This document shows positions 3,722 through 23,798 of a stretch of 33,339 nucleotides of DNA, one piece after another; position 1 is the stretch's first letter, and each line of letters opens with the position of its first letter. The stretch is from Bacteroidales bacterium (lineage in GTDB: Bacteria > Bacteroidota > Bacteroidia > Bacteroidales > F082), in NCBI GenBank assembly GCA_017466405.1, contig JAFTUF010000044.1, positions 1-33,339 on the forward strand, given 5' to 3'. The notes under the pieces were generated by a model. It saw only the letters and a program-made list of their open reading frames with translations. It had not been told where the DNA came from and did no database searches. Both the position numbers and the translations under genes were made by a program.

Positions 3722-5248
3722 ATGGCTGTTATACGTAGATTTTTTCTGATACTTTTTTTATTCTCCTTTACAACTTGTTTGTTCTCGCAGTCGCTCATAG
3801 GAACGCAGGGTAATTACGCAGGCTCCCGCTCGCTTTCAATGAATCCTGCCTTGATGTCAACTTCATATCTCTATTCCGATTTTTCTATAGCAGCAACAGG
3901 ACTCTCGTTTTTCAATGACTTCATATATTTAAAAGGTAGTGACTTGTCAAAGTTTTTATTCACTGAAGAACATCCGATACCGGAATATGAACATCCGTTA
4001 AATAGTGGTGACACTCTTAACTTTATGATTTACGACAATCCTAATAGTAAGTATAATAGTATTTACGAGTCCCTAGATGTAAACTTGCTGAGTTTTATTT
4101 ATAGTCTTGATGAAAAACAGACAATAGGATTCTCTTTGAACGGAAGAGTCTATACCAGTGGGACAAACATTCCCTATGAGATTCCGGAGATGTGTGCTTT
4201 GGGTTTAAAGGATAATGATTCCCTGTTAGGTCATTATCAGTCGTCCGACGCGGAAATAGCTACTATGGAATGGGTTGAACTCGCAATGTCGTATTCGAGA
4301 AAGGTTTACGACCGCTATCTTAACAGAATTGATATAGGTGCCAGCGTGAAATATCTTATGGGTTATTCGGCTGCTGTGGCAAATATCGATAATCTTGATT
4401 ATGAGGTTGTCCACGAAGATACTATAGTGGTGAATAATATAGATTCCTATATAGCTTATTCTCTGCCTTTGGACTATGACGCGCCCTTTGACTCTGTGTT
4501 ATTGTTTGACAAGTCTTTGGTGAGAGGAAACGGTATAGCTCTCGATTTGGGCTTTTCGTTCACTCATAAGAAAGGAATCTCTTATAATAATCCTCGACTT
4601 ATCTCAGCCTGCATGATGCCAAGAGTCGATTACAGATGGAGACTTGCGATATCTCTAATGGACTTGGGCTTTATAAATTTTAAAGATAATGCTGTTGACA
4701 ACAGATTCGTCAGCGATAGCCCTGTTGATTTCGACAAGGCAATTTTTGATAACGTAGGTTCTTTCAGCGATATTATAAATTTCCTTAGCGATATTTATTA
4801 TGATGGCGACACCACGGCTTCTCTCATCGGCAATGCTTTCAAGGTAGGACTCCCAACAACTTTGCGACTTCAGTTCGATTATAATATTGTTAATCATGTT
4901 TATGTCAATGCTACTTTCATTCAGCCTATAAGTTTGTTTAAGTATTCGGTGAAAGCAGCACCACAGCTTTTGCTGGAACCTCGTTTTGAATCCAATTATT
5001 TCGACCTAAGCATTCCATTGACTCTGCGCGACTACAAACATTTCATGGTAGGAGCTACGGCAAGGATTGGATTTATAACCATAGGAACACAGAACTTGGC
5101 GTCATATCTTGGCTTTGGTAACGTGAATGGAATGGATTTCTTTGTCTCGCTGAAATTTAATTTTATCAAGGGAAAATGTGATGAAGACAAGTACGATGCT
5201 TGTTGGTCGGCTGACTATGGAAATTATAAAAACAGAAGACGTCAGTGA
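3722..5248 (+). CDS. DUF5723-like predicted outer-membrane beta-barrel protein
   Basis: The 508-residue product begins with a signal peptide (RR, then a hydrophobic stretch ending CLFSQS, cleavage near residue 23). The N-terminal region after it (GTQGNYAGSRSLSMNPAL) resembles the start of the DUF5723 family of Bacteroidota, which is related to PorP/FadL-like barrels and begins with a motif describing where the proteins keep NPA. The rest alternates hydrophobic and polar residues in strand-like blocks and ends in amphipathic strands. The function of the family is unknown. The gene stands alone and converges with the permease gene 8 bases downstream. Confidence 0.7.
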   Translation: MAVIRRFFLILFLFSFTTCLFSQSLIGTQGNYAGSRSLSMNPALMSTSYLYSDFSIAATGLSFFNDFIYLKGSDLSKFLFTEEHPIPEYEHPLNSGDTLNFMIYDNPNSKYNSIYESLDVNLLSFIYSLDEKQTIGFSLNGRVYTSGTNIPYEIPEMCALGLKDNDSLLGHYQSSDAEIATMEWVELAMSYSRKVYDRYLNRIDIGASVKYLMGYSAAVANIDNLDYEVVHEDTIVVNNIDSYIAYSLPLDYDAPFDSVLLFDKSLVRGNGIALDLGFSFTHKKGISYNNPRLISACMMPRVDYRWRLAISLMDLGFINFKDNAVDNRFVSDSPVDFDKAIFDNVGSFSDIINFLSDIYYDGDTTASLIGNAFKVGLPTTLRLQFDYNIVNHVYVNATFIQPISLFKYSVKAAPQLLLEPRFESNYFDLSIPLTLRDYKHFMVGATARIGFITIGTQNLASYLGFGNVNGMDFFVSLKFNFIKGKCDEDKYDACWSADYGNYKNRRRQ

Positions 5249-8372: not shown

Positions 8373-8420
8373 AAAGAGCGTATAGTTTAAAGGTAGAGTG
8401 ACACGATGATGACTAAAAAA

Positions 8421-8450
8421 CTGTTGTCCGTTGTCTGTAGTCTGTTGTCT
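8421..8450. repeat. 7-bp tandem repeat upstream of ruvX
   Basis: CTGTTGT, CCGTTGT, CTGTAGT, CTGTTGT run head to tail directly before the ruvX -7 box. The 13-mer CTGTTGTCCGTTG within it recurs exactly at 31854-31866. Confidence 0.65.
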
Positions 8451-8456
8451 TTTTAT

Positions 8457-8464
8457 TATCTTTG
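8457..8464 (+). promoter_or_regulatory. -7 box for ruvX-def
   Basis: TATCTTTG matches the -7 consensus and lies 16 bases before the ruvX ATG at 8481. It supports that start over an upstream ATG at 8406, which would translate the heptamer repeat. Confidence 0.6.
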
Positions 8465-8480
8465 CAAAAAAAAATTAAGA

Positions 8481-8912
8481 ATGGCGAGAATAATGGCTAT
8501 CGATTATGGACGCAAACGTTGCGGCATCGCAGTGACTGACCCTTTGCAGATTATTGCTAACTCACTCACTACGGTTGCCACTCACGAATTGCTGCCCTTT
8601 ATCTTGGATTATGTCAAGAAGGAAAACGTGGAGTCGATTGTTATCGGCGAACCTAAGGATATGCAGAATAACCCTTCCGAGTCGAGTCGTTATATTGAGC
8701 CTTTCATCGCTCAGCTGAAAAAGGCGCTGCCTGAGATGAACATCAAACGTCATGACGAACGCTTCACCTCCAAGATGGCGTTCCAGACTATGATAGACGC
8801 TGGCCTCGGAAAGAAACAACGCCAGAATAAGGCTCTCGTCGATACCATCAGCGCGACAATCATTTTACAGTCGTATATGGAATCTGAAGCAATAAAGAAA
8901 AATAGATTTTAA
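8481..8912 (+). CDS. ruvX: Holliday junction resolvase-like protein RuvX/YqgF
   Basis: RuvX (YqgF) is an RNase H-fold nuclease implicated in Holliday-junction or 16S rRNA precursor processing. The 143-residue product has the expected acidic positions: Asp7 in MAIDYGRKRCG, Glu in IVIGEPKD, and the segments RHDERFTS and VDTISATIILQ. Its length is normal. The chosen start (MARIMAIDYG) follows the -7 box by a short leader; the upstream in-frame ATG at 8406 would add a repeat-encoded peptide and is rejected. It is followed 10 bases later by def. Confidence 0.93.
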   Translation: MARIMAIDYGRKRCGIAVTDPLQIIANSLTTVATHELLPFILDYVKKENVESIVIGEPKDMQNNPSESSRYIEPFIAQLKKALPEMNIKRHDERFTSKMAFQTMIDAGLGKKQRQNKALVDTISATIILQSYMESEAIKKNRF

Positions 8913-10155: not shown

Positions 10156-10748
10156 AATTCCTGATTATAACCTTCTATCAAATTTAAGACGTCGTCTTTG
10201 CCTATTTCTTTCTCGGAAGAAGTGACGATGATTTGCGGTATCTCTTCCCATTCTTCAGCGAGTCTGTCTTTATAAGCCTGCAGGTTACGCTGAAGTTCGG
10301 CTTCTTTTATCTTATCTACTTTAGTGAAGATGATGTTGAAAGGCATCTGCAGTTCTCCGAGATGATTGATGAATTCCAAGTCGATTTTCTGAGGCTCGAT
10401 GCGGCTGTCAACCAAAACGAACATACAGATGAGATTTTTTCTGTTTTTGATATAATCGTCGAGCATGACTTTCCACGACTCACGGTCTTTCTTTGAACGC
10501 TGCGCAAAACCATAACCTGGCAAATCGACAAGATACCATTCGTCGTTGATGATGAAATGGTTTATGGTGATGGTCTTTCCTGGAGTGGAAGATGTCTTTG
10601 CTAATTGCTTTTTGTTAGTCAGCATATTAATCAATGACGACTTTCCGACATTGGAGCGACCAATGAAAGCGTATTCCGGCTTGTTGGCGGAAGGTAGTTT
10701 GTCGATTTTTGTGTTGCTTTGCAGAAACGCTGCTTTTCTTATTATCAT
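10137..10748 (-). CDS. engB: ribosome biogenesis GTPase YsxC/EngB
   Basis: EngB (YihA/YsxC) is a GTPase needed for assembly of the large ribosomal subunit. The 203-residue product has G1 GRSNVGKSS at 30-38, G3 DLPGYGFA and G4 TKVDK, with the normal family length. The start at 10748 ([11 protein letters not shown]) is chosen: an ATG at 10847 is in frame but would add 33 residues encoded by the 8-bp tandem repeat (a repetitive Ser-Asn-Ala-Thr-Gln-Leu stretch). Its stop codon lies inside the terminator stem. Confidence 0.95.
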
Positions 10749-10758
10749 CTTTTTTAAA

Positions 10759-10823
10759 GTTACTGAGTTACTAAGTTGCTGAGTTGCTAAGTTGCTGAGT
10801 TGCTGAGTTGCTGAGTTGCTGAG
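10759..10823. repeat. 8-bp tandem repeat upstream of engB
   Basis: Eight 8-bp units run head to tail: GTTACTGA, GTTACTAA, GTTGCTGA, GTTGCTAA, then four GTTGCTGA. It starts 11 bases before the engB ATG and is joined to the palindrome at 10832-10886. The same octamer with the same flanking GTTTGAGACG occurs inverted at 201-248. Confidence 0.85.
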
Positions 10824-10831
10824 GTTTGTTT

Positions 10832-10886
10832 GAGACGTGTCAATCACATTATTGTTTATGATTCATAGGTGTAATTGACGCGTCTC
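10832..10886. repeat. palindromic element copy C
   Basis: GAGACGTGTCAAT at 10832-10844 pairs with ATTGACGCGTCTC at 10874-10886 (one G-T wobble). It lies between the start regions of engB and the end of glsB. Right arm and loop sequence (GGTGTAATTG) resemble copy A at 142-193. Confidence 0.8.
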
Positions 10887-10888
10887 TA

Positions 10889-10916
10889 CAATTTTCAATT
10901 TTCAACTTTCAATTTG
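10889..10916. repeat. 7-bp tandem repeat over the glsB stop
   Basis: CAATTTT, CAATTTT, CAACTTT, CAATTTG run across the stop codon of the leftward glsB gene (10902-10904), so the last GlsB residues are encoded by the repeat. Confidence 0.6.
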
Positions 10917-11870
10917 TTTAAGGTGTTCCGGTTTTTCGTTTTTGTTGTAAATGAGATGTCGTTCAATCTTTTCAGGGAAGATGTCTTCAATAGTTACCAA
11001 GATTGCAGTCTCTTCAACATTGCCGAAAGGTTCGTTGAGCGCAGTTCCGAATGTCTTCATCGTTGCCGAAAGGCTCATGTATGCGTTGAACAGAGGAGGT
11101 ATTGTAGAACCGTGTTCTCTTATATATTTACTCAATGTCCTGTAGCTGTTCTGATAATTGTTGCCGTCGAGTCTCAGCTTCATGATAGCTTTTCTGGCCT
11201 TGATATTTATGGCTTTATCAGGGTAAGGATAGATGAGATTATCGTTGTCGGGGAAGAATTTTTTCATGAAGAAAAGAATCATGTCGCGCAATGCAGGGTC
11301 ATATTGAGAATACATAGTGACTTTTCCGAAGAAATATTTTGTCGAAGGTATCACTGTGAGCAAGGCGCCGAGTCCGTCCCATAGGTTGTCAAGGGTGAAG
11401 ATGCTCTTTCTTACGTTGCCTGTCGATTGGTATTTCGGTTGTATGAAAGAACGTCCGAGTTCTATGGTATGAGGAAGATAGTCTTTGATGAAATCCTCTG
11501 AGTAATAGAAGAGCTCTGATGTTGGAGTATCTACTTGTCCGTTATTTTTTATCTTAAGTTTTTCGCAATCGATGAAGCGGTAGCCTCCGAGTATTTCTTT
11601 CTCGGCAGGGTCCCATACTATGAGTTGCTCGAAATAAACATCGTCTCTTGTGTCGAACTCGTCTATGTCCATGCTCTTGCCTGTTCCGCCACCGGATTCT
11701 CTGAAGGCTAATTCACGAAGACGGCCGATCTCGCGCATGGTGTTAGGAGCGTTGTGCGCATTGACGATGTATATCTCGTTGTGTCCGTAGTTAGTCTTCC
11801 TTACAAAACGTTCTTCTGTCAATTCTTTGATGATGTCTTCCGAAGAAACGGCATCAATAATTTTTTCCAT
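10902..11870 (-). CDS. glsB: GlsB-like N-acyltransferase (OlsB/GNAT-type)
   Basis: The 322-residue product resembles the acyltransferase of the OlsB type that N-acylates glycine in Bacteroides glycine lipids (GlsB). It shows RELAFRESGGGTGKSMDIDEFD, a strand block with GGYRFIDC, and ELGRSFIQPKYQ, which match the GNAT-like acyl-ACP binding region of hemolysin/OlsB-family proteins. It follows a PlsC-like gene by 9 bases on the same strand, the pairing known for glsB and glsA in Bacteroides. The exact substrate is inferred from this pairing, not proven by sequence. Its last codons are repeat-encoded. Confidence 0.72.
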   Translation of the reverse strand: MEKIIDAVSSEDIIKELTEERFVRKTNYGHNEIYIVNAHNAPNTMREIGRLRELAFRESGGGTGKSMDIDEFDTRDDVYFEQLIVWDPAEKEILGGYRFIDCEKLKIKNNGQVDTPTSELFYYSEDFIKDYLPHTIELGRSFIQPKYQSTGNVRKSIFTLDNLWDGLGALLTVIPSTKYFFGKVTMYSQYDPALRDMILFFMKKFFPDNDNLIYPYPDKAINIKARKAIMKLRLDGNNYQNSYRTLSKYIREHGSTIPPLFNAYMSLSATMKTFGTALNEPFGNVEETAILVTIEDIFPEKIERHLIYNKNEKPEHLKQIES

Positions 11871-11879
11871 ATCTTATCT

Positions 11880-12740
11880 TTATATTGTATAATTTTTTTC
11901 TGGGTCAAAAGTCTGCTCGCAGTCGGCTGGGAGGTTGTAGGAGAAGTTTCTCAGTCGCATCGCCCATTCTGCGTCGCTGTATCTGTTGTCGAAAGTCTGC
12001 CAAGGTATCGGCTTGCCGAAAGTGATGGTGAGGGTCTTGTTTTTCTGTTTGTAAAACTCGTTGACCAAAAACATCATCTCGATATTTACCTTGATGCCAA
12101 GTTTCTTTCGTATGTTGGAGAGGTTGTAGAAGAAGTCGCTGTTTCTTCCTGTTATATGAGCTGGTATTATGTCGCGATGATACGCCTTGGCTTTAGTGAT
12201 GAAAGTCTTCTTCCATTCCAAATCGATGATTTTGCCGTTTTGTTTTCTCGAACATAATCCGTAAGGATAGTAGCAGATTGTCCTGTCGCTTTCAAAGGTC
12301 TCGTTGAAAACCTTGATGTTGTCGGCGTTGCTTCCTAACTTGTTGACAGGTATGAAGAGAGGTCTTAGGTTAGGAACGAAGAGAAGGAAATCGTTGACGG
12401 GTGTGATGACGTCGGGTCTTATCTTGCCGACGGTGTCGATAAGTGCTATGCCGTCGAGACCGCCTATTGGATGGTTGGCGGCGATGATGTAGCGTCCGTC
12501 TTCTTTGATGTGGTCTAAACCATGCGTGATGACGCCAGTGTTGAATTCTTTCATGGTCTCAGCAACAAAAGGCAGTCCTGCAATGCCGTTGGCTCTGATC
12601 AACAATCCGTTGATGTCGTCTTGATGAAGTATTTTCTTTAAATATTTAATAACAAAACGCGGAACCTTGTTGGCAAACTTAGGAGCTTTCTGGCTGATAA
12701 TTTTCTCAATGTCAATCTGTAATGTTTCTTTCTCGCTCAT
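11880..12740 (-). CDS. glsA: GlsA-like O-acyltransferase (PlsC-type)
   Basis: The 286-residue product has the 1-acylglycerol-phosphate acyltransferase signature in the form NHPIGGLDG (His and Asp of the NHx(4-5)D motif) and a second block YYPYGLCSRKQNG at the place of the usual FPEG motif. In Bacteroides this protein adds the second, ester-linked acyl chain to monoacyl glycine lipid. It is the first gene of a leftward pair with the GlsB-like gene and reads divergently from mraZ. A general lysophospholipid acyltransferase is the alternative. Confidence 0.72.
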   Translation of the reverse strand: MSEKETLQIDIEKIISQKAPKFANKVPRFVIKYLKKILHQDDINGLLIRANGIAGLPFVAETMKEFNTGVITHGLDHIKEDGRYIIAANHPIGGLDGIALIDTVGKIRPDVITPVNDFLLFVPNLRPLFIPVNKLGSNADNIKVFNETFESDRTICYYPYGLCSRKQNGKIIDLEWKKTFITKAKAYHRDIIPAHITGRNSDFFYNLSNIRKKLGIKVNIEMMFLVNEFYKQKNKTLTITFGKPIPWQTFDNRYSDAEWAMRLRNFSYNLPADCEQTFDPEKNYTI

Positions 12741-12790
12741 TTCTCATTAATTATTCAAGAGCTATCATTGATGATAGAACTTCCATTTTG

Positions 12791-12798
12791 CAAAAATA
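12791..12798 (-). promoter_or_regulatory. -7 box for glsA-glsB
   Basis: The minus strand reads TATTTTTG, matching TAnnTTTG, about 50 bases upstream of the glsA ATG. No -33 element was recognised. Confidence 0.45.
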
Positions 12799-12915
12799 AT
12801 GAATTATCCTTACGAAAAGTAAAATAAATTTTTTTAATGCTTGTTGTGAAACTGTATTTTTCAAATCCCTTGATTTTGCTGTATGTTGGATTGTTGTTGA
12901 AAACTTTTTTAGAAA

Positions 12916-12953
12916 AAAGTGAATTTTTTTAGTTCAAAGTGGTTGAAAGTGGG
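12916..12953 (+). promoter_or_regulatory. putative MraZ-binding repeats
   Basis: AAAGTG at 12916, AAAGTGG at 12936 and AAAGTGGG at 12946 are direct repeats set at 20 and 10 bp, that is in helical phase. MraZ is known to bind tandem GTGG/TGGG repeats with a 10-bp repeat unit upstream of its own gene. The last two copies flank the -33 region of the predicted mraZ promoter, so binding would repress transcription. Confidence 0.6.
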
Positions 12954-12972
12954 AAAAAATGCACTAATTTTA
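12943..12972 (+). promoter_or_regulatory. predicted dcw operon promoter
   Basis: TTG at 12943-12945 and TAATTTTA at 12965-12972 (one mismatch to TAnnTTTG) are separated by 19 bases, the spacing of Bacteroidota -33/-7 promoters. The predicted start would lie about 18 bases before the mraZ ATG. The placement is inferred from sequence only. Confidence 0.45.
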
Positions 12973-12995
12973 CAACTTGAAAATTTGAATGGAAA

Positions 12996-13460
12996 ATGAA
13001 TTATCCAATTGGCGAATATAATTGTAAATTAGACAGTAAGGGAAGATTGCTTCTTCCGAGCAGTTTTAAGGAACAGCTCGGTGATGCGCTCGAAGAGGGA
13101 TTTGTCCTTCGTCCTAGTCTTTTTGGCGATTGTCTTGAGCTTTTTGGAATGAGCGATTGGCGTGCCATGCAGGAGAAGTTAGGAAAACTTAATCCGTTCA
13201 AGGCGGAGAACGTGATGTTGATTCGTCGTTTCAATGCCGGTGCGCGAATGGCTAAAGTAGATGCAAACGGTCGCCTTCAGATTCCTAAGGATCTGATGGA
13301 GAAAACTAAACTCGTGAAAGATGTCGTCATGACTTCTTTGATTGATAGAATGCAGATCTGGGATCGTTCCATTAAGGAGATTGAAGATTCCAAGATTTCA
13401 GAAGAACAATTTGTGGAGATGCTTACCGCAAAATTGGGTGATTGCGATTTTATTGGTTAA
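12996..13460 (+). CDS. mraZ: transcriptional regulator MraZ
   Basis: MraZ is the DNA-binding regulator that opens the dcw cluster. The 154-residue product has two SpoVT/AbrB-like swapped-hairpin domains, each with the family motif: DSKGRLLLP near the N-terminus and DANGRLQIP in the second half. Length is normal. It is the first gene of the operon, preceded by GTGG-type repeats that are its likely binding sites, and ends 20 bases before rsmH. Confidence 0.96.
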   Translation: MNYPIGEYNCKLDSKGRLLLPSSFKEQLGDALEEGFVLRPSLFGDCLELFGMSDWRAMQEKLGKLNPFKAENVMLIRRFNAGARMAKVDANGRLQIPKDLMEKTKLVKDVVMTSLIDRMQIWDRSIKEIEDSKISEEQFVEMLTAKLGDCDFIG

Positions 13461-13480
13461 TAACATTAAGATTAAAAGAG

Positions 13481-14383
13481 ATGTATCATATTCCTGTTTT
13501 ATTGAACGAAAGTGTCAATGCTTTAAATATTAAGCCAGATGGCGTTTATGTTGATGTTACCTTCGGTGGCGGCGGTCATTCTCGTCGTATCATGGAGTGT
13601 CTTGGTGAAAATGGTCGTCTCTATGCTTTTGATCAGGATGAAGACGCTGCTAAGAATGTTATCGACGATAGTCGTTTTACGTTCATCCAGCAGAACTTCC
13701 GTTATATGAAAAACTTCGTTCAGCTTTATTGCGGAGGCAAAGTCGATGGCATACTCGCTGACCTCGGCGTGTCTTCATATCAGTTCGACACTCCAGAAAA
13801 AGGTTTCTCCATACGTTATAACGGACGTCTCGATATGCGTATGAACAGAAACGCTGCCGTAGATGCAGCTTCTGTAGTCAATACCTACGACCAAGCTTCT
13901 TTAGCGTCAGTGCTTTCGCGTTATGGCGAACTTAGAAACGCCATGGCAATAGCAGACTCTATCACGATGGCACGTGAAGTGAAACCTATAGAGACAACAG
14001 ACGAACTTAAAGAAGCAGTAGCTCGTTTCTTGCCAAAAGGCTCTGAGAACAAGGTGCTCGCTCAGATTTTCCAAGCTTTGAGAATTGAAGTCAACGAGGA
14101 GATGAAAGTGCTCGAGATGTTTCTCTCTCAATGTGCCGACGTCTTGAATCCTGGAGGAAGACTCGTGGTGTTGTCGTATCATTCCTTGGAAGACCGTCTC
14201 GTGAAAAACTTTATGAAGACAGGTAACGCCGACGGTATTCTCGAGAAGGATTTCTTCGGCAATCAGCTAACACCTTATAAATTAATATCCAGCAAACCAA
14301 TAGTTCCTTCTGACGAAGAGATAAGTCTTAACAATAGGGCTAGAAGCGCGAAGTTACGTGTGGCCGAAAGGAGGACGAAATGA
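13481..14383 (+). CDS. rsmH: 16S rRNA (cytosine(1402)-N(4))-methyltransferase RsmH
   Basis: RsmH (MraW) methylates C1402 of 16S rRNA in the decoding centre. The 300-residue product has the SAM-binding motif VDVTFGGGGHS, the segment GILADLGVSSYQFD and the C-terminal block LVVLSYHSLEDRLVK, all diagnostic. The start at 13481 (MYHIPVLL) is the family start, preceded by AAAAGAG; an in-frame upstream start would overlap mraZ. Its stop overlaps the start of the ftsL-like gene by 4 bases (ATGA). Confidence 0.97.
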   Translation: MYHIPVLLNESVNALNIKPDGVYVDVTFGGGGHSRRIMECLGENGRLYAFDQDEDAAKNVIDDSRFTFIQQNFRYMKNFVQLYCGGKVDGILADLGVSSYQFDTPEKGFSIRYNGRLDMRMNRNAAVDAASVVNTYDQASLASVLSRYGELRNAMAIADSITMAREVKPIETTDELKEAVARFLPKGSENKVLAQIFQALRIEVNEEMKVLEMFLSQCADVLNPGGRLVVLSYHSLEDRLVKNFMKTGNADGILEKDFFGNQLTPYKLISSKPIVPSDEEISLNNRARSAKLRVAERRTK

Positions 14384-14724: not shown

Positions 14725-16846
14725 TCCTAAAAACGACGTGTTATGGAGGGTTTATCTTCTCTATATATTAATGGTGTTGTTCGGAATCTTGGTGTTGGTC
14801 AAGATAGTCATTATCCAAACCAAAGAGAAAGACGAACTCATAGAAATGGCTGAAAAACGAGAAGAACGATTCAAAGAGGTGGAGTCTCATCGTGGTAATG
14901 TGGTTTCTAAAAACGGAACCTTGTTGGCGACGTCAATACCAGTGTTCGACGTTTTCTTTGACCCATGCGCTCCTCACGACACTACCTTCAAAAAGGAAAT
15001 CGATGGACTCGCTACTTGTCTCAGTCGTAAACTCGGAAAGAAATCAAAAGCTAAATATATTAGTGACCTTACTAAGGCGCGTGCCGACAGAAAACGTTAT
15101 ATCAGAATAGCAACTAAATTGTCGATGTCGGACTATAAGGAGATGTCAAACTTTCCTATATTCAGACATGGCAAAAACAAAGGCGGATTCATCACGGAAA
15201 GAAGATACGTGAGAAACTTGCCATACGGAGTGCTTGCTGCAAGAACGATTGGTTACTCGAGAGAAAACGATAAAGACAGCATATATGTATATGTCGGCAT
15301 CGAAGGCGCTTATAACGAATATCTTAAAGGAAAGAATGGTCAGCAGGCTTATAGACGTATCAACGGAAACTTCTGGATGCCAGTGCCGGATCCTTTCAAC
15401 AGCGAGCCTGTCAACGGTGACGATGTATATACTTCTATAGATATTGAATTGCAGGATGTTGCTGAAAACGCTCTAATGAATTGCCTCATAGAAAACGAAG
15501 CAGAACAAGGTTGTGTCGTTCTTATGGACGTAAAGTCGGGATTTGTAGAGGTGATGGCATCGTTGTGTTATAATCAGAAGACATCTAAATATGAGGAGAC
15601 ATATAATTATGCATTGCGTCATAATGTGGAGCCGGGTTCTACATTTAAGGCATTGACGATGTTGGCCTTGTTGGAGAATAATCCTTCACTGAGCATTGAC
15701 GACAAAGTCAATATTGGAACGACAGGCTATAAGGTGTTTTATAGAAGAACATTGAGAGATTCTCATAAGGTGAATGATGAAAAAGGCTATACCACAATAC
15801 GCAATGCCTTCGAGCAATCTTCGAACATAGCTTTCGCGACATTGGTGGAAGAGACGTTTAAAGACAATCCTCAGAAGTTTATAGACCATATCTATGATAC
15901 TAAAATTAATGAACCTTTAAATCTTGATATACAAGGTGCGGCGTCTCCATATATAAAGAATACCAAAGACAAGACATGGTCGAAACTTACACTTCCTTGG
16001 ATGTCGGTAGGTTATGAGGTGCAGCTTACGCCAATACAACTTCTTACATACTACAATGCTATCGCTAACGATGGTGTTATGGTGAAGCCTCAGTTCGTCA
16101 AAGAGATACGTCATGGCGATGAGCTGATAAAGAGTTTTGATACTATAGTTATCAATGAAAGTATTGCGTCGCCAAGGACAATAGAGACTTTGCAGACTCT
16201 TTTGAAAGGCGTGGTGGAAAACGGTACTGCCAAGAGCATGAGCAAACTCGGATTCTCTGTGGCGGGAAAGACTGGAACAGCGCAGATTTCACAGGGAGGC
16301 GGATATAATAAAAAGAATTATACGGCAACGTTCGTGGGATATTTCCCTGCTGACAATCCCCAGTATTCATGTATCATAATGGTAAGCAACCCTATGGGTG
16401 GAAAATATTATGGTAGCTCGGTGTCGGGACCGGTGTTTAAAGAACTTGCCGAGAAGATTTATGCGACGCGTCTGGGTATAGTTGAAGAAGAAAGCGATCA
16501 TCAGGCAGATTGCAAATCATTTACCAGCGCCTCTATGGTCTATTACGACGACTTCATGAATTTCTGTAACATAGAAGATATTCCTTTCATCGATGATGTG
16601 GAGAGTGACAAGTGGGTCAATGTGAAAATAAATGAAGATGTGACATACGTAAGTCATGTTGATTTTGAAGAAAACAAAGTGCCTGATGTCAAAGGGATGA
16701 ATGCCACCGATGCGGTGTGTCTCTTGGAGTCGATGGGATGGAAAGTGACATTTACGGGTTATGGAAAAGTGAAGACACAATCTGCTAAGGCTGGTTCTGA
16801 ACTTAAAAAAGGAAGTGTAATTAATTTATCGTTGAGCGCAAAATGA
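14714..16846 (+). CDS. ftsI: FtsI-type penicillin-binding protein with PASTA domain
   Basis: This is the septal transpeptidase that cross-links peptidoglycan. The 710-residue product has an N-terminal membrane helix (about 8-30), a pedestal domain, and the transpeptidase domain with SxxK at Ser309-Lys312, SxN at Ser369-Asn371 and KTGT at 519-522. A single PASTA domain (VPDVKGMNATDAVCLLESMG) occupies the last 60 residues. The start at ATG 14714 is chosen over GTG 14708 because GGAGG lies 5-10 bases upstream. It overlaps the ftsL-like gene by 11 bases and murE by 4. Confidence 0.95.
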   Translation: MKIDPKNDVLWRVYLLYILMVLFGILVLVKIVIIQTKEKDELIEMAEKREERFKEVESHRGNVVSKNGTLLATSIPVFDVFFDPCAPHDTTFKKEIDGLATCLSRKLGKKSKAKYISDLTKARADRKRYIRIATKLSMSDYKEMSNFPIFRHGKNKGGFITERRYVRNLPYGVLAARTIGYSRENDKDSIYVYVGIEGAYNEYLKGKNGQQAYRRINGNFWMPVPDPFNSEPVNGDDVYTSIDIELQDVAENALMNCLIENEAEQGCVVLMDVKSGFVEVMASLCYNQKTSKYEETYNYALRHNVEPGSTFKALTMLALLENNPSLSIDDKVNIGTTGYKVFYRRTLRDSHKVNDEKGYTTIRNAFEQSSNIAFATLVEETFKDNPQKFIDHIYDTKINEPLNLDIQGAASPYIKNTKDKTWSKLTLPWMSVGYEVQLTPIQLLTYYNAIANDGVMVKPQFVKEIRHGDELIKSFDTIVINESIASPRTIETLQTLLKGVVENGTAKSMSKLGFSVAGKTGTAQISQGGGYNKKNYTATFVGYFPADNPQYSCIIMVSNPMGGKYYGSSVSGPVFKELAEKIYATRLGIVEEESDHQADCKSFTSASMVYYDDFMNFCNIEDIPFIDDVESDKWVNVKINEDVTYVSHVDFEENKVPDVKGMNATDAVCLLESMGWKVTFTGYGKVKTQSAKAGSELKKGSVINLSLSAK

Positions 16847-18300
16847 GAAAAATAAAAGACATATTAAAAGCTTGTAAAATAGTTGAAGTCGTTGGTGACG
16901 ACAATCGTGAGGTTTCCGGTCTTACCTTCGATTCTAGAAAATGTTCCTCAGAGATGGCTTTCTTCGCTATAAAAGGAACTCAGGTCGATGGACATGACTA
17001 TATCGAAAAGGCTATAGCCCAAGATTGTAAGGTGATAGTATGTGAGAAGTTGCCAGAAGCCGTCAGTGATGATGTGACGTATTATGTCGTTGACGATAGT
17101 GCTGAGTCTCTCGGCTATGCAGCGTCAGAATTTTATGGCAGACCTTCTGAGAAAGTACGTCTTGTCGGTGTGACTGGCACGAACGGAAAAACGACGATAG
17201 CAACATTGTTGTATCGTTTGTTCTTCAATGCAGGCTTTCCATGCGGACTTTTATCGACGATAGAAAACAGAATCAACAATACAGTCGTACCTTCTACACA
17301 TACCACAGGCGATCAGCTTCAAATCAACGAGATGCTCAGCCGTATGGTGGAGGCTGGATGCGAATATGTCTTTATGGAAGTGAGTTCTCATGCCGTTGAC
17401 CAGAAGAGAATAAAAGGACTTCGTTTTGAAGGTGGCATATTTACAAACCTCACACACGACCATCTCGACTATCACAAGACAGTGGCAGCCTATCGCGACG
17501 CTAAGAAGAAATTCTTCGATGAGCTTCCCTCGACGGCATTCGCTCTCACTAACTTGGACGATAAAAACGGAATGGTGATGCTTCAAAATACAAAAGCATC
17601 GAAGAAAACCTACTCATTAAGAACTGACGCTGATTTCAAAGGTGTCGTCATGGAGAGTTATTTCGATGGAATGGAGATGAAGATAAACAGAAACAACATC
17701 TCGACATTCTTGGTAGGTAAGTTTAATGCAAGCAATCTTTTGGCAATATATGGAGCTGCTTCTTTGTTGGGTATGAGCGACGATGATCTGTTTAAGGAAG
17801 TCAGTAAGTTGCAGAGCGCTCCTGGACGTTTTCAGATCGTACGTTCCGATTCAGGTGTCGTTGGCATAGTGGATTATGCTCATACTCCAGATGCTCTGAA
17901 AAACGTGCTCGACACCATTAATGAAATAAGGACTCATAACGAAACGCTTATCACTGTGGTAGGCGCTGGCGGTAACAGAGACGCTACCAAGAGACCTGAG
18001 ATGGCTGACGCTGCTGTGACAAGAAGCGACAGACTTATCATCACAAGCGACAACCCTCGTTTTGAAGAACCGGAAGATATTATCAGACAGATGCGTGCTG
18101 GCGTTGGCGGCGAATATTATAACAAGGTGCTGAGCATTACGGAAAGAAGAGAGGCTATAAGAACAGCAGCTGCCTTGGCAAAGAAAGGCGATATTATTCT
18201 GGTCGCTGGCAAAGGTCATGAAGACTATCAAGAGATTAAAGGCATACGCCATCATTTCGATGACGTGGAAGAGTTAACAAAGGCTTTGAACGAAAAATAA
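16843..18300 (+). CDS. murE: UDP-MurNAc-tripeptide synthetase MurE
   Basis: MurE adds the third residue to UDP-MurNAc-L-Ala-D-Glu. The 485-residue product has the three Mur ligase domains: an N-terminal UDP-binding domain, the ATP motif GVTGTNGKTT at 109-118 and a C-terminal domain with DNPR at 403-406. DNPR marks meso-diaminopimelate as the substrate, which agrees with dapD in this window. Its substrate is the product of MurD, whose gene in this operon is only a remnant. It overlaps ftsI by ATGA. Confidence 0.97.
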   Translation: MRKIKDILKACKIVEVVGDDNREVSGLTFDSRKCSSEMAFFAIKGTQVDGHDYIEKAIAQDCKVIVCEKLPEAVSDDVTYYVVDDSAESLGYAASEFYGRPSEKVRLVGVTGTNGKTTIATLLYRLFFNAGFPCGLLSTIENRINNTVVPSTHTTGDQLQINEMLSRMVEAGCEYVFMEVSSHAVDQKRIKGLRFEGGIFTNLTHDHLDYHKTVAAYRDAKKKFFDELPSTAFALTNLDDKNGMVMLQNTKASKKTYSLRTDADFKGVVMESYFDGMEMKINRNNISTFLVGKFNASNLLAIYGAASLLGMSDDDLFKEVSKLQSAPGRFQIVRSDSGVVGIVDYAHTPDALKNVLDTINEIRTHNETLITVVGAGGNRDATKRPEMADAAVTRSDRLIITSDNPRFEEPEDIIRQMRAGVGGEYYNKVLSITERREAIRTAAALAKKGDIILVAGKGHEDYQEIKGIRHHFDDVEELTKALNEK

Positions 18301-18308
18301 GATAAGAT

Positions 18309-19589
18309 ATGTTGTACTATTTGTTTGAATATTTAGATAAGTGCTGCGACTTCCCAGGTGCTGGAATGTTTACTTACGTCACTTTCCGAGCTATCTTTGC
18401 TATCATAGTGTCGTTGTTGATTTCGGTGTGGTTCGGTAAATATTTCATCCGTCTGCTGAAGAAACATCAGATCTCGGAGACACAGAGAGATGAAGCTACC
18501 GACCCGTTCAACACTCAGAAAAAAGGAGTGCCAACAATGGGAGGACTCATCATAATAACAGCGATATTGATTCCTTGTCTGTTGATAGGCAAGCTTAAGA
18601 ATGTCTATATGATATTGATGATAGCCACGACCGTGATACTTGGTATTGTGGGCTTCGCCGATGATTATATCAAGACGTTCAAGAAGAAGAAAGACGGTTT
18701 GAACGGATGGTATAAAGTATTCGCTCAGGTACTTCTCGGACTTATCGTTGGTCTTACGCTGCGCTTCAGTCCGTCGGTGGTGATGAATGAGAAAGTTGAG
18801 ACAAAGATTGAAAACAATAAGGAGATAGTTGTTAAGACTCCTGATGTCAAATCGACACGCACTACTATACCGTTTATAAAAGGACATAACTTGAATTATG
18901 CCGACATCTTCAATTTCCTCGGAGAGCCATACAAATATTGGGCAGGCTGGATTTTCTTCGTGATAGTGACGGTGTTTGTGGTTACAGCGGTATCGAATGG
19001 CTCTAACCTCAATGACGGCATGGATGGTATGGCAGCGGGTAACTCTGCGATAATGGGCGTGGCTCTTGCAGTGCTGGCTTACGTCTCGAGTCACGTGGTG
19101 ATGGCGGATTATCTCAATATTATGTTCATACCAGGAAGCGAAGAAGTGGTGGTGTTCCTCTGTGCCTTCATCGGAGCTCTCATCGGATTCTTATGGTATA
19201 ACTCATATCCAGCACAGATATTTATGGGCGATACGGGAAGCCTTACCATAGGTGGAATAATAGCAGTGTCTGCTGTCATCATTCATAAAGAATTGCTTCT
19301 GCCAATAATTTGCGGAGTGTTCCTGTGGGAAAGCCTCTCCGTGATTTTGCAGAAATATTATTACAAAATGGGTAAGAGAAAAGGCGTACATCAACGTCTG
19401 TGGAAGAGAACTCCAGTACACGATCATTACAGAACATCGCTTTCGTTGGTGGAGAAATTGGATCCAGGATGTAAGGTCTTATTCAAAGGCTCATCACAGC
19501 TTTATCACGAGTCGAAGATAACATTCCGATTCTGGATTGTGAGTATCTTGCTCGCAGCATTCGCAATATTAACATTGAAAATCAGATAA
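18309..19589 (+). CDS. mraY: phospho-N-acetylmuramoyl-pentapeptide transferase MraY
   Basis: MraY transfers phospho-MurNAc-pentapeptide to undecaprenyl phosphate, making lipid I in the inner membrane. The 426-residue product has about ten membrane helices and the family motifs GVPTMGG, GFADDYIK, SNGSNLNDGMDGMA and FMGDTGSL. The C-terminal histidine motif reads PVHDHYR. The length is greater than that of E. coli MraY because of a loop around residues 160-200 containing VKTPDVKSTRTTIPF, as in Bacteroidota homologues. It is followed 32 bases later by the murD remnant. Confidence 0.97.
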   Translation: MLYYLFEYLDKCCDFPGAGMFTYVTFRAIFAIIVSLLISVWFGKYFIRLLKKHQISETQRDEATDPFNTQKKGVPTMGGLIIITAILIPCLLIGKLKNVYMILMIATTVILGIVGFADDYIKTFKKKKDGLNGWYKVFAQVLLGLIVGLTLRFSPSVVMNEKVETKIENNKEIVVKTPDVKSTRTTIPFIKGHNLNYADIFNFLGEPYKYWAGWIFFVIVTVFVVTAVSNGSNLNDGMDGMAAGNSAIMGVALAVLAYVSSHVVMADYLNIMFIPGSEEVVVFLCAFIGALIGFLWYNSYPAQIFMGDTGSLTIGGIIAVSAVIIHKELLLPIICGVFLWESLSVILQKYYYKMGKRKGVHQRLWKRTPVHDHYRTSLSLVEKLDPGCKVLFKGSSQLYHESKITFRFWIVSILLAAFAILTLKIR

Positions 19590-19621: not shown

Positions 19622-20170
19622 ATGACATTAGAACAATTGGCAAGACAGGGAAGAAGGACAGCTTCGATGACGACAGCAGCAACAATTTCATCGAAGATGA
19701 GCCAGATTAGAAAAGAAAGTATCAAACAGGCATTCTGTGACTTCGATAGCGTAAAGCATAGATATGAATATGTAGATGTAATAGATGGAGTTTCGTATTA
19801 CGACGATTCAGGAGCATGTTCCAGCGAAGCATCTTGGTTCTCTTTCGATAATCTGCATCAACAACTCGTGTGGATAACATACGCCAACAATGCCGATTGT
19901 GATGAGCTTATTCCTCAGGTGAGAAAATATGTCAAGTCGATAGTTTGTATAGGAAACAACACTGAGAGATTCCATAAGGTGTTTTCTAATATCATCCCTG
20001 AAAACATCATAGATTGCGACAGCATAGAAGAAGCTGTTAAGATGGCTCATATTCTTGCTGAGACCGACGACTGTGTCATTTTCTCTCCAGCATCGCAGGT
20101 GAGAGATGAGTTCTCGTCTTTTGCAGAGAGAGGTGACTATTTCAAACAATGTGTTCAAAATTTAAAGTGA
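19622..20170 (+). CDS. MurD C-terminal-domain remnant (non-catalytic)
   Basis: The 182-residue product aligns only with the third domain of MurD, the D-glutamate ligase, from about residue 16 (SMTTAATISSKM, matching the NSMAA region) to the end. The UDP-binding and ATP-binding domains, about 260-290 residues, are absent, and only 32 bases separate it from mraY, so no frameshifted N-terminus is hidden. Residues that hold D-glutamate are also lost: DSKATN is DSGACS (62-67), the GGxDKG segment is ITYANNADC, and SPACASLDQFKNF is SPASQVRDEFSSF (155-167). The frame is open and the spacing to ftsW is tight (6 bases), which suggests retention for a structural or regulatory role, though early decay is possible. 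Confidence 0.85.
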   Translation: MTLEQLARQGRRTASMTTAATISSKMSQIRKESIKQAFCDFDSVKHRYEYVDVIDGVSYYDDSGACSSEASWFSFDNLHQQLVWITYANNADCDELIPQVRKYVKSIVCIGNNTERFHKVFSNIIPENIIDCDSIEEAVKMAHILAETDDCVIFSPASQVRDEFSSFAERGDYFKQCVQNLK

Positions 20171-20176
20171 TAAAAT

Positions 20177-21352
20177 ATGAAACTGTTTAATAAGTTGTTT
20201 CAAGGAGATAGAGTGATATGGATGATAGTGGCTCTGCTATCGTTGGTGTCGTTGTTGGCTGTCTATAGCGCTACGGGAACGTATGCTAATGCGAGGTTTG
20301 GTGGTGACAACGCCAGGGTTTTGCTGAGTCATGCTGGCAAGATGTTCATAGGATTGGGAGTGTTGTATTTTGTCTATCTCTTTAAATACACTTATTATTC
20401 AAGAATTTTTCAGGTGGCATTTTTACTGTCTATACCATTATTGCTATATACCTTGTTTTTTGGTGTCGATCTCAATCAGGCACAGCGTGTAGTCCATATA
20501 ATGGGAATCTCGTTCCAGTCAAGCGACTTCGCTAAGATTGCGTTGATAGGTTATCTCGCAAGAGAACTGACACTGAGGCAGGACGAGATAAAAGATTTTA
20601 AACATGCTTTCATCCCCTTGATGCTGCCAGTCCTGATAATTGTAGGATTGATATTTCCAGAGAATTTTTCTACGGCAGCTATCTTGTTTGCAGCATGTAT
20701 GGTTCTTCTTTTTGTGGGAAGAATCAATATGAAGCATCTGATGGCGTTCTTCGGAATAGCCTTGGTGATAATGAGTTTTTATATATTGATAGAACTTAAC
20801 GATAATGATCCTGACGACCGTGTAAATACATGGTTTAATAGAATAGAGAGATATTTCAACCCAGCAGAAGGCGAGGAGACAGAAGATGATTATCAGATGA
20901 TAATGTCGAAGACTGCCATAGCTAAAGGCGGTATTTTGGGTAGCGCTCCTGGAAGAAGTACTCAGCGTAATTTTCTCCCGCACCCGTATTCCGATTTTAT
21001 CTTTGCCATCATTGTTGAGGAATACGGATTGTTAGGAGCTGCCTTTGTGCTGATGCTTTATCTGATATTGCTGTATCGCTCCATTACTATAATGGTAGCG
21101 ATACCGCAGTCGTTCGGAGGATTCCTTTCCTTTGGTCTGGCGTTTATGCTTGTTATGCAGGCTATGGTCAATATGGGAGTCGCGGTGGGTTTGCTGCCTG
21201 TTACGGGACAGCCTCTTCCTTTTGTGAGTATGGGAGGATCTTCGCTGATGTTCACAGGATGTGCCTTTGGCGTGATATTAAGTGTATCGAGAGAAGTTAA
21301 TAAAATTAAAGAAAGAAAAAATGAAGTCGAGACAACCCAAGATAATTATTAG
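20177..21352 (+). CDS. ftsW: SEDS peptidoglycan glycosyltransferase FtsW
   Basis: FtsW polymerises lipid II at the septum together with FtsI. The 391-residue product has about ten membrane helices, the large periplasmic loop with HPYSDFIFAIIVEEYG containing the catalytic Asp, and the C-terminal motif LPVTGQPLPFVSMGGSS. The N-terminal motif is ISFQSSDFAK, where many homologues have FQPSEFAK. It overlaps murG by 32 bases. Confidence 0.96.
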   Translation: MKLFNKLFQGDRVIWMIVALLSLVSLLAVYSATGTYANARFGGDNARVLLSHAGKMFIGLGVLYFVYLFKYTYYSRIFQVAFLLSIPLLLYTLFFGVDLNQAQRVVHIMGISFQSSDFAKIALIGYLARELTLRQDEIKDFKHAFIPLMLPVLIIVGLIFPENFSTAAILFAACMVLLFVGRINMKHLMAFFGIALVIMSFYILIELNDNDPDDRVNTWFNRIERYFNPAEGEETEDDYQMIMSKTAIAKGGILGSAPGRSTQRNFLPHPYSDFIFAIIVEEYGLLGAAFVLMLYLILLYRSITIMVAIPQSFGGFLSFGLAFMLVMQAMVNMGVAVGLLPVTGQPLPFVSMGGSSLMFTGCAFGVILSVSREVNKIKERKNEVETTQDNY

Positions 21353-22436
21353 CGGCGGAGGCACGGGAGGTCATATCTTTCCTGCCATAGCAATAGCCGA
21401 TGCCTTGAAGAAACGTTTTCCTCAAGCTGAGATACTCTTCATAGGTGCCAAAAATAGAATGGAAATGGATAGGGTACCTAAGGCTGGTTTTCCTATCGAA
21501 GGACTTTGGATAAGCGGCTTCAAAAGAGAACTGTCGCTCGACAACCTGAGTTTTCCTTTCAAACTGCTCAGCAGCATGGTGAAAGCGAGAAAAATTATCA
21601 AGAGGTACAAACCCGATGTTGTCATTGGCGTTGGAGGATTTGCCAGCGGACCAACCATAAAGACAGCTGCGTCGATGGGAATCCCTATCGTCATACAAGA
21701 ACAGAATTCCTTTCCTGGGGTGACAAATAAATTGGTTGCAAATAAAGCTGCCAAGATATGCGTGGCTTACGATAATATGGATAAGTGGTTTCCTAAAGAT
21801 AAGATAGTACTTACCGGTAATCCGCTAAGAAATAATATATCTCCAGTAGATGGAAAGAAAAACGAAGCTCTCTCGTTCTTTAATCTTAACACTGATAAGA
21901 AGACTATACTTCTTGTCGGAGGAAGTCAGGGCGCTCTTGGAATCAATGTCGGCATCTCTGCACAGTTAGCTTCTTTCAAAGAAAACGACTATCAGATGAT
22001 ATGGCAGACAGGCAAACATTATTACGATAAAGCCGTTGCTGAGGTGAAAGCCAACGGACTCGAAGACAGAATAAAATGTACGGTCTTCATCGATAGAATG
22101 GACTTGGCGTATGCCGCCGCCGACGTGGTGATTTCACGCGCTGGCGCCATGTCGATCTCAGAGTTGTCGCTGCTCGAAAAGGCTGTCGTCTTCGTGCCGC
22201 TTCCTACCGCTGCCGAAGATCATCAGACAAAGAACGCGATGCGTCTCGTCGAAGCTGATGCCGCACTTTTGGTGAGAAATGCTGAGACCGAAAAAGAGCT
22301 TCTGCCAAAGGTGTTCGAACTTATGAACGATGAGGAAAAGCAAAACATGATTAAAGTCAATATAGCCAAATTTGCTAAGCCTAACGCGGCAGAAGATATA
22401 GTAGATCAAATAGAAATAATACTTAACGAAAAATAA
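21321..22436 (+). CDS. murG: undecaprenyldiphospho-muramoylpentapeptide beta-N-acetylglucosaminyltransferase MurG
   Basis: MurG adds GlcNAc to lipid I, forming lipid II on the inner face of the membrane. The 371-residue GT-B protein has the N-terminal glycine loop GGGTGGHIFPAIAIAD, the linker-domain motif VGGSQGALGIN and the UDP-GlcNAc-binding region SRAGAMSISEL followed by PLPTAAEDHQ. The start at 21321 (MKSRQPKI) gives the family N-terminus; the longer frame from 21282 is less likely. The start lies inside the last 32 bases of ftsW, which suggests translational coupling. Confidence 0.96.
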   Translation: MKSRQPKIIISGGGTGGHIFPAIAIADALKKRFPQAEILFIGAKNRMEMDRVPKAGFPIEGLWISGFKRELSLDNLSFPFKLLSSMVKARKIIKRYKPDVVIGVGGFASGPTIKTAASMGIPIVIQEQNSFPGVTNKLVANKAAKICVAYDNMDKWFPKDKIVLTGNPLRNNISPVDGKKNEALSFFNLNTDKKTILLVGGSQGALGINVGISAQLASFKENDYQMIWQTGKHYYDKAVAEVKANGLEDRIKCTVFIDRMDLAYAAADVVISRAGAMSISELSLLEKAVVFVPLPTAAEDHQTKNAMRLVEADAALLVRNAETEKELLPKVFELMNDEEKQNMIKVNIAKFAKPNAAEDIVDQIEIILNEK

Positions 22437-22448
22437 AAATCTGAAGTG

Positions 22449-23798
22449 ATGAATAAGATTGCTGAACAAAACATATATTTCTTGGGAATAGGAGGCATAG
22501 GAATGAGTGCCCTCGCTCGTTATTTCCAAAAGAAAGGATGTAAAGTCTCGGGCTACGATAAAACACCGTCGCCACTGACAGCACGTCTCGAAGAAGAAGG
22601 CATGACTATTCATTATGAGGATAACCCTAATCTTATCCCTGACGACATCGACTTTGTGGTGCTGACACCAGCGATACCTTCAGATTCGTTGGAACTGAAT
22701 TATCTCCGTGAAAGAAACGTCAGGATAATAAAACGCGCTGAGGTCCTTGGTGAAATATCGCGTCACAGCAAGAGCATCGCCGTGGCAGGAAGTCATGGCA
22801 AGACAACGGTGACGTCAATGGTGACGCATCTCCTTAAATATTCAGGAAAGAAGATGTCGGCTTTCATCGGAGGCATAGCGAAAAATATCAATAGCAATGT
22901 CGTCATTGGTGATGAAAACGACGAACTCGTGGTGATGGAGGCTGATGAGTTCGACCGTTCTTTCTTGAAGCTGTCGCCTTATCTCAGTATCGTCACTTCC
23001 ATCGATGCCGACCATCTCGATATTTACGGAGATAAAGAGCAGGTTGTAGAGAGTTTTAATCAGTTTGTGGAAAAGACAGCCGCCGATGGAGTGGTGGTTC
23101 ACAATAATAAACTTCAGATTGTTACAGATAGAAAGAAGATAACTTACGGTATTGAAGATGCCGATTTTATGGCAAGAAATATCAGAGTTGAAAATGGCGT
23201 CACAAAGTTTTCCGTAGTGACGAAAGAGGGTCACGATTACGGAGAGTTTCGGATGCATATCTACGGAGAGCATAATGTGATGAACGCCTTGTCGGCTATA
23301 ATAAGTTGTCTTTGTTTTGATGTCGATATTGAAGTGATAAGAGAAGGACTTGCTGAGTTTCAAGGAGTGCTGCGTCGTTTCGATATAAGAGTAAAGAATG
23401 ACAATGTCTGTTATATCGATGATTATGCGCATCATCCAGAAGAGATAAAGGCAAGTCTGCGTGCTGCCAAGACGATATTCCCGGATAAGGAGATGACCGT
23501 TATCTTCCAGCCTCATCTTTTTACTCGTACGCGCGACTTTATGCTTGAATTTGCAGACGCTCTATCGCTCGCCGACAGACTCCTCTTGATGGAAATATAC
23601 CCGGCTCGCGAAAAAGCTATACCAGGAATAACATCATCGGCTCTGCTTGAAAAAGTGTCGTGCAAAGAAAAATTCATCTGCCAGAAAGAGGAACTCCTCG
23701 AAATGGTGAAGAACATAAAACCGCAGCTGCTCATCACAATGGGAGCCGGCGACATCGATAGATTCGTTCCACAATTAGAAACATTACTCGACTCATGA
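22449..23798 (+). CDS. murC: UDP-N-acetylmuramate--L-alanine ligase MurC
   Basis: MurC adds L-alanine to UDP-MurNAc, the first step of the stem peptide. The 449-residue product has the N-terminal nucleotide-binding loop FLGIGGIGMSALA, the ATP motif AGSHGKTTVTSM and the C-terminal DDYAHHPEEI motif with catalytic-site His residues. All three Mur ligase domains are present, in contrast to the murD remnant. ATG at 22449 is preferred over the GTG at 22446. It overlaps ftsQ by ATGA. Confidence 0.97.
   Translation: MNKIAEQNIYFLGIGGIGMSALARYFQKKGCKVSGYDKTPSPLTARLEEEGMTIHYEDNPNLIPDDIDFVVLTPAIPSDSLELNYLRERNVRIIKRAEVLGEISRHSKSIAVAGSHGKTTVTSMVTHLLKYSGKKMSAFIGGIAKNINSNVVIGDENDELVVMEADEFDRSFLKLSPYLSIVTSIDADHLDIYGDKEQVVESFNQFVEKTAADGVVVHNNKLQIVTDRKKITYGIEDADFMARNIRVENGVTKFSVVTKEGHDYGEFRMHIYGEHNVMNALSAIISCLCFDVDIEVIREGLAEFQGVLRRFDIRVKNDNVCYIDDYAHHPEEIKASLRAAKTIFPDKEMTVIFQPHLFTRTRDFMLEFADALSLADRLLLMEIYPAREKAIPGITSSALLEKVSCKEKFICQKEELLEMVKNIKPQLLITMGAGDIDRFVPQLETLLDS

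Follow-up and report, generated by a model that had tools for sequence, protein, structure and literature searches.

The window, by which we mean the whole stretch of 33,339 nucleotides analysed here, carries a dcw cluster on its forward strand. Full-length murE (16843..18300), murG (21282..22436) and murC (22446..23798) each score over their family cut-off, ftsA and ftsZ are likewise full length and each above its own, and mraY (18309..19589) is intact and over the cut-off of TIGR00445. The ftsW-like gene (20177..21352) is also intact and has TIGR02614 as its best match, with 261.8 bits and a cut-off of 337.5 that it does not attain. Between mraY and this gene lies an open reading frame of 182 residues with zero internal stops (19622..20170, forward strand), separated by 32 bases from the end of mraY at 19589 and by 6 bases from the ftsW-like gene. 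Its frame and profile matches identify it as a free-standing MurD domain 3 whose catalytic residues are lost, hereafter D3-only murD. The murD model TIGR01087 matches it at profile positions 269-440 of 441 (4.4e-33, 115 bits, under the curated cut-off of 211.95 bits), and in a whole-genome scan with the murD model it covers positions 263-440. The match to PF02875 (Mur_ligase_C) has 26.5 bits (1.3e-5), under the curated cut-off of 28.4; among eight proteins including this one, six lie above that value, and L053 has 27.7. The start segment MTLEQLARQGRR (19622..19657) corresponds to an internal methionine of full-length MurD and the M-T-x-E-x-LALQG(K/R)HN segment that it opens, with H270 and N271 lost; the residue numbers H270, N271, K319, T321, K348 and A414 follow the numbering of E. 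coli MurD. The P-loop and the catalytic residues of domain 2 are missing together with that whole domain, and three ligand-binding motifs have changed, from DSKATN to DSGACS, from GGxDKG to ITYANNADC and from SPACASFDLF to SPASQVRDEF. No ligation is possible, because both the UDP-MurNAc domain and the ATP domain are missing. An earlier sequence-only reading had described the frame as MurD domain 3 alone, with the three segments altered, 32 bases from mraY and amid otherwise intact murC, murE, mraY and murG; it had also denied it any ligase activity and ascribed its shortness to deletion and not to a frameshift. The matches bear out this description throughout, the deletion being supported by the 32-base gap and by the same arrangement across the genus.

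A profile scan of the genome to which the window belongs (2.43 Mb in 69 contigs, 95% complete) returned no full-length MurD, and no glutamate racemase was detected in it at E-values up to 1. Reading of the corresponding position in the congeners gave the same D3-only gene in 31 of 35, with ftsW downstream in all 31 and mraY upstream in 30; at L038 the contig stretch covers only the end of mraY. Among the matches listed, the interval could not be placed in the remaining four congeners (G002, G003, G006 and G013; 62-82% complete), and the stretches examined for G003 and G013 do not include it. A full-length canonical MurD is found in 0 of the 36 genomes of the genus, again among the matches listed. 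The truncated murD is a fixed feature of this genus, whose members are uncultured bacteria of the gut. The congener proteins are 34-69% identical to that of the window, whose nine nearest D3-only relatives include two from horse faeces and water-buffalo abomasum. At L068 (G015, about 4130-4165), murE is followed directly by D3-only murD, and mraY was not found between them.

One full-length murD match exists elsewhere in 31 of the 36 genomes of the genus; a MurL-like gene adjoins it in the same 31, and by coordinates the full-length match is the one beside that gene in every case (31/31). The congener copies that were read, of the MurD2 type, are 28-33% identical to a canonical MurD of the order. 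The 20 MurL/MurD2 loci read show an 8-base overlap of the two genes in 16 and one shared frame in 2; in the other two, from the window's closest relatives G009 and G027, the spacing is 4 and 12 bases. In G031 the fused frame is recognised by both the MurL model (1.7e-76) and the murD model (1.5e-95). MurL-MurD2 as one open frame of about 885-996 residues was also noted in L164, L172, G019, G024, G028, G507, G533, G607, G692 and G757, and the fusion may have arisen in several lineages. In all 20 MurD2 copies read, from the 31 found, Glu occupies the position of Asp182 and Arg that of Lys348; these are the equivalents of E197 and R358, seen in the motifs EEH and GG[FY]DR. According to the accessible part of the Xanthomonas work, this pair of residues sets the L-Glu specificity of MurD2, and reversing both leads to D-Glu (PMC8788868). 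The racemase MurI, tested in 60 genomes, is found in 0 of the 36 of the genus; the set also includes 24 genomes from other families, six with MurL and without MurI, 17 with MurI and without MurL, and one with neither (G050). The latter genome, 98% complete in about 10 contigs, shows neither MurL nor MurI nor a MurD that reaches the cut-off among the matches listed, and its best match to the murD model is a 460-residue frame at C3:321390 that is weakly MurC-like. The MurL matches (NF041275) score about 204-285 bits (1e-60 to 1e-85), below the model cut-off of 700 bits; the model is named for Xanthomonadales, so we call the genes of this order MurL-like only, and their MurL activity is deduced with reserve because the scores fall under that cut-off. 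Since a MurL-like gene and a MurD2 with the L-Glu residues are present and MurI is not, the genus most likely makes D-Glu on the nucleotide precursor. The sequence-only reading had placed a working D-Glu ligase elsewhere in the genome and had advised a search for a full-length murD or for the MurD2/MurL route. A ligase fitting that route was indeed found in 31 of the 36 genomes, but the block was not detected in the assembly to which the window belongs. The substitute also resembles an L-Glu ligase paired with an epimerase-like protein, a chemistry proposed from homology. A second D-Glu ligase was rejected, as the genus has no full-length match besides the MurL-adjoining one (31/31; residues read in 20).

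MurL and MurD2 were not found in the assembly of the window, in the less complete congeners G002, G003 and G016, nor in G023, which is 97% complete and too distant for DNA matching. The stretch L159 744-9823, which holds the block and its neighbours, has no DNA match in the window's genome (G000) among the 40 of 148 candidate places that were scored, and is matched at 66-70% by contig C24 of G009. The far flank of the same locus (10674-13724), unlinked in G009, has a 78% match in the window's genome. As about 9 kb around the block are unmatched even though the nearest complete relative has them, the contig is probably absent from the assembly, a true loss of MurL/MurD2 being less likely. Two repeated stretches were noted in these sequences. 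A stretch of about 50-75 bases (window 8405-8468; L159:9843-9922) occurs in at least 10 places of the window's genome with 78-85% identity, which among the matches listed are on C10, C11, C15, C17, C19, C37, C38, C49 (twice) and C62; the copy in the window sits at the start of the open reading frame 8406-8912. The other, a dispersed repeat of about 30-60 bases (L159:13705-13780), has at least dozens of copies in G027 and G009 and is also present in G023.

The reduction is not peculiar to the genome of the window and recurs across MurL-bearing families of the order. A MurL-like gene is present in 125 of 393 genomes of the order (67 of 204 genera) and in 0 of 392 genomes of a phylum sample, all at least 90% complete. 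The 125 MurL-positive genomes include 48 with a D3-only murD, 68 with a full-length gene, four in which the gene lies at a contig edge and five with none; 124 were scanned with a domain-3 profile, giving 47 D3-only genes, and the D3-only state of G033 comes from the reading of the genus. In the five genomes without the gene (G055, G505, G555, G586 and G659) there was no second domain-3 match at the thresholds used; domain 3 may be dispensable there, or too degenerate, or hidden by MAG gaps. MurL-negative genomes show 0 D3-only and 51 full-length genes, drawn from 36 picked by handle number among genomes outside the MurL-positive list (35 full length, one at a contig end) and 16 further genomes with MurI, all full length, in one of which (G041) the gene is split over two contig ends. 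Genes that meet a contig end were left out (G796, G809, G533 and G522, MurL-positive; G482, MurL-negative), and two genomes were left off the MurL-negative side: G052, with MurI and 70% complete, which has no full-length MurD among the matches listed, and G050, without MurI or MurL, which has no MurD among them. The D3-only state is thus seen in 48 of 116 MurL-positive genomes with a readable gene versus 0 of 51 MurL-negative ones (Fisher p = 5e-10, kinship ignored), and by families in 19 of 41 versus 0 of 51 (p = 1e-8, kinship ignored). In the FtsW tree, 27 of the 29 full-length MurL-negative rows fall into one clade, and recurrence is a stronger point than these association tests. Both murD states coexist within ten families, and the tree needs 17 state changes, at least six of them forced by well-supported (starred) branches; it is a quick tree with long-branch warnings, which includes some of the members of the mixed families and leaves out rows without FtsW (L208, L020 and L308). 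Since domains once deleted are very unlikely to return at the same site, this means several independent cuts.

At 45 further D3-only loci of MurL-positive genomes, three of them congeners, mraY lies upstream in 45 and ftsW downstream in 44; at L308, ftsW was undetected in the 0.86 kb of contig that follow the D3-only gene. The D3-only gene of G038 has both neighbours, and for that of G040 the contig starts just upstream, after an in-frame stop. Two Flavobacteriaceae have a D3-only gene in the same arrangement, and MurL was not found in either. In the Flavobacteriaceae MAGs G060 (L093/L197) and G061 (L105/L198), the dcw cluster contains a D3-only murD but no murC match between murG and the genes that follow, which are ftsQ-, ftsA- and ftsZ-like by look; scans of these genomes with the models for murD and MurL yielded neither a full MurD nor a MurL or MurC-like match. 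Because 68 MurL-positive genomes keep a full-length MurD and 48 have lost it, MurL alone does not force the loss. Among these 68 full-length genes, 41 were read, 40 of them with ftsW adjoining, and the operon place of the rest is assumed. The 41 proteins (43 rows, two of them duplicates) keep the catalytic residues and the P-loop, with single changes beside the catalytic residues in a few copies (GGKDKEND in G654, NITPDHLGRY in G626). Since the full-length MurD of MurL-positive genomes is still of catalytic type, redundancy would have come first and the cut later.

The D3-only genes are under purifying selection. Among the best 60 pairs, taken after exclusion of pairs with MraY identity below 0.82, domain 3 has dN/dS values of 0.00-0.38, mostly below 0.20, four pairs giving no ratio; the same pairs give 0.02-0.26 for ftsW, often below domain 3, and lower values still for mraY. 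Values outside the family of the window are 0.05 in f116, 0.07 in f170, 0.10 in f129, 0.15 in f135 and 0.19 in f127, and the window compared with its two nearest kin yields 0.09 against L059 and 0.10 against L053, at a saturated dS. The retained non-catalytic role that the sequence-only reading had supposed finds support in this selection within the genus, and the outcome that it had named as refuting, full-length orthologues in close relatives beside a neutrally decaying copy, is not what the congeners show. Conservation was compared between 71 full-length and 56 D3-only rows in 20 groups, weighted by group and family, the second loci of G047 and G048 being left out of these and of the methionine counts. 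H270 is invariant in full-length rows and retained in 2% of D3-only rows, where N271 is kept in 34%, K348 in 43%, and K319 and T321 in 63-64%. All 56 D3-only rows have D317 and an Arg or Lys at position 302, the Ser-Pro pair (410-411) is kept in 95-97%, and a tryptophan and several hydrophobic and glycine positions are retained in 92-100%. The motifs form a gradient from intact DSKATN and GGxDKG (G040, G550, G469 and G811) to the degenerate protein of the window, and their loss is greatest in the window's genus, f2, f127 and f135.

These observations bear on what the domain is kept for. That the gene is a relic decaying without function would agree with the loss of active-site motifs, most advanced in the lineages just named, and with the faster change of domain 3 relative to MraY. 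However, the D3-only frames are intact and nearly constant in length across 19 families (176-195 residues from the predicted start in 53 of 56 rows, a later methionine having been picked by the script in the other three), dN/dS is well below 1 in all reported pairs with a ratio, and D317, Ser-Pro, the tryptophan and several hydrophobic and glycine positions are kept as described; neutral decay is ruled out by dN/dS and conserved length, and we regard a functionless relic as highly improbable. A role of the nucleic acid itself is unlikely because it would not give the observed dN/dS values. With both of these disfavoured, a function of the folded domain remains. It could be to bind ligands or to regulate another enzyme, MurD2 or MurC for instance, as a subunit that senses nucleotide or D-Glu. 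D317 and Arg/Lys302, present in all 56 rows, leave nucleotide binding possible, and several D3-only lineages still carry DSKATN and GGxDKG; nevertheless, many lineages, the genus of the window among them, no longer have K348, T321, K319 and N271, and MurD2 has a complete domain 3 of its own, which makes a sensing subunit unlikely in our view. An assembly artefact or a frameshift of a full-length gene deserves a mention since the window comes from an assembly in 69 contigs, of which it is one, but the 32 bases next to mraY and the recurrence of the arrangement in dozens of further assemblies, some with contigs as long as 1.38 Mb (G705) and 5.26 Mb (G677), leave it a negligible probability; assembly error is rejected on the strength of these other assemblies.

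We propose that the open reading frame is the remnant of the dcw murD, a catalytically dead pseudoenzyme domain 3 that is kept for protein binding in wall synthesis, and we hold this to be the probable explanation, with moderate confidence. Ligation would have been taken over by MurL/MurD2, freeing the dcw MurD from catalysis; the two substrate- and ATP-binding domains would then have been removed by a deletion reaching to a conserved ATG inside the gene, where domain 3 begins; and domain 3 would have been kept as a candidate binding module for docking on wall-synthesis proteins encoded in the same operon, with MurG, MraY and FtsW as the possible partners. MurG is favoured as the candidate partner because it is reported to bind MurD, its binding of MurD, MurE and MurF being cited in the accessible part of a work on Mur scaffolds (PMC6420597). 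We infer the order of events, the docking function and the partner. The pattern suggests that domain 3 of MurD has a second, non-catalytic job.

The position of the cut has prompted a rival explanation. The cut lies mostly at one internal methionine of full-length MurD, and M-T-x-E-x-LA-x-QG, exact or slightly varied, opens most D3-only genes, though not those of f2, f112 and part of f127. It can be hypothesised, tentatively, that full-length murD already makes a domain-3-only protein from an internal ATG, and that the truncated genes lost the long form after MurL/MurD2 had arrived. This methionine is the most conserved one of MurD (94% of 71 rows), and a methionine is found within three residues of the site in 41 of 41 MurL-positive and 27 of 30 MurL-negative full-length proteins, yet it may be conserved for structural reasons, as PDB 3lk7, a MurD from outside the order, has a methionine there too. 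The 30 bases upstream of it have an AT content of 0.73 (D3-only starts, 0.78; randomly chosen internal positions, 0.58), and local folding there is weak; the full-length rows are nevertheless related to each other, and the linker is rich in Asn, Ile and Lys. An A at -3 is seen in 70%, versus 35% at random internal sites and 62% at D3-only starts, but M344, another conserved methionine, also has it in 80%. Among the positions scored in full-length genes of MurL-positive genomes, the intervals straddling the methionine show the greatest depletion of synonymous G+C, although the interval just before it ranks 23 of 422 (67 of 422 in MurL-negative genes) and the first 15 codons, including the gene's own start, lie outside the scoring. 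These are hints of an internal start in full-length murD. Were they correct, murD might be a two-function gene in these Bacteroidales, a ligase and an internally started free domain 3 that organises the wall complex, and the takeover by MurL/MurD2 would represent a separation of function repeated six to ten times or more; this wider scenario is speculative, and we would not count on it.

Compared with the MurD structures PDB 1e0d and 2uag, domain 3 aligns over its full length and the gene occupies the same slot between mraY and ftsW, whereas the window protein is without domains 1 and 2, H270, N271, K319, T321, K348 and A414. In these genomes the name murD does not guarantee that a gene encodes a ligase, which calls for caution in annotation. 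As far as the available account of it extends, MurT of the MurT/GatD pair is likewise a case of the Mur-ligase fold reused outside the set of pentapeptide ligases. MurT has enzymatic activity and possesses an ATP-binding domain; by contrast, the window protein is a lone domain 3 without an active site. The congeners share with Xanthomonas oryzae, as described in the accessible part of that study, a MurD2 with both specificity residues, a MurL-like gene adjoining or fused to it, and the lack of MurI; no D3-only MurD is mentioned in the same part, whereas here the old MurD survives as one domain (PMC8788868). The review of MurD2/MurL names gamma- and alphaproteobacteria and actinobacteria, and the stem 'bacteroid' appears nowhere in its text (PMC8788868). 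A MurL-like gene, reported for few other genera in the accessible part of that source (PMC8788868), is common in the order of the window. Neither a domain-3-only MurD nor MurL in Bacteroidota appears in the titles and abstract openings of the papers listed by searches of literature outside subscription papers and preprints, a silence that is a weak sign of novelty. The MurG-centred Mur scaffold provides a model for a MurD domain that would serve by docking alone; in the accessible part of its description no domain 3 contact is mapped, the scaffold is not shown for Bacteroidota, and the structural role of Mur ligases is argued mainly from binding and localisation studies (PMC6420597). In the order studied here, catalysis seems to have been lost and a single domain retained on several independent occasions, which opens the question of a structural role to direct testing.
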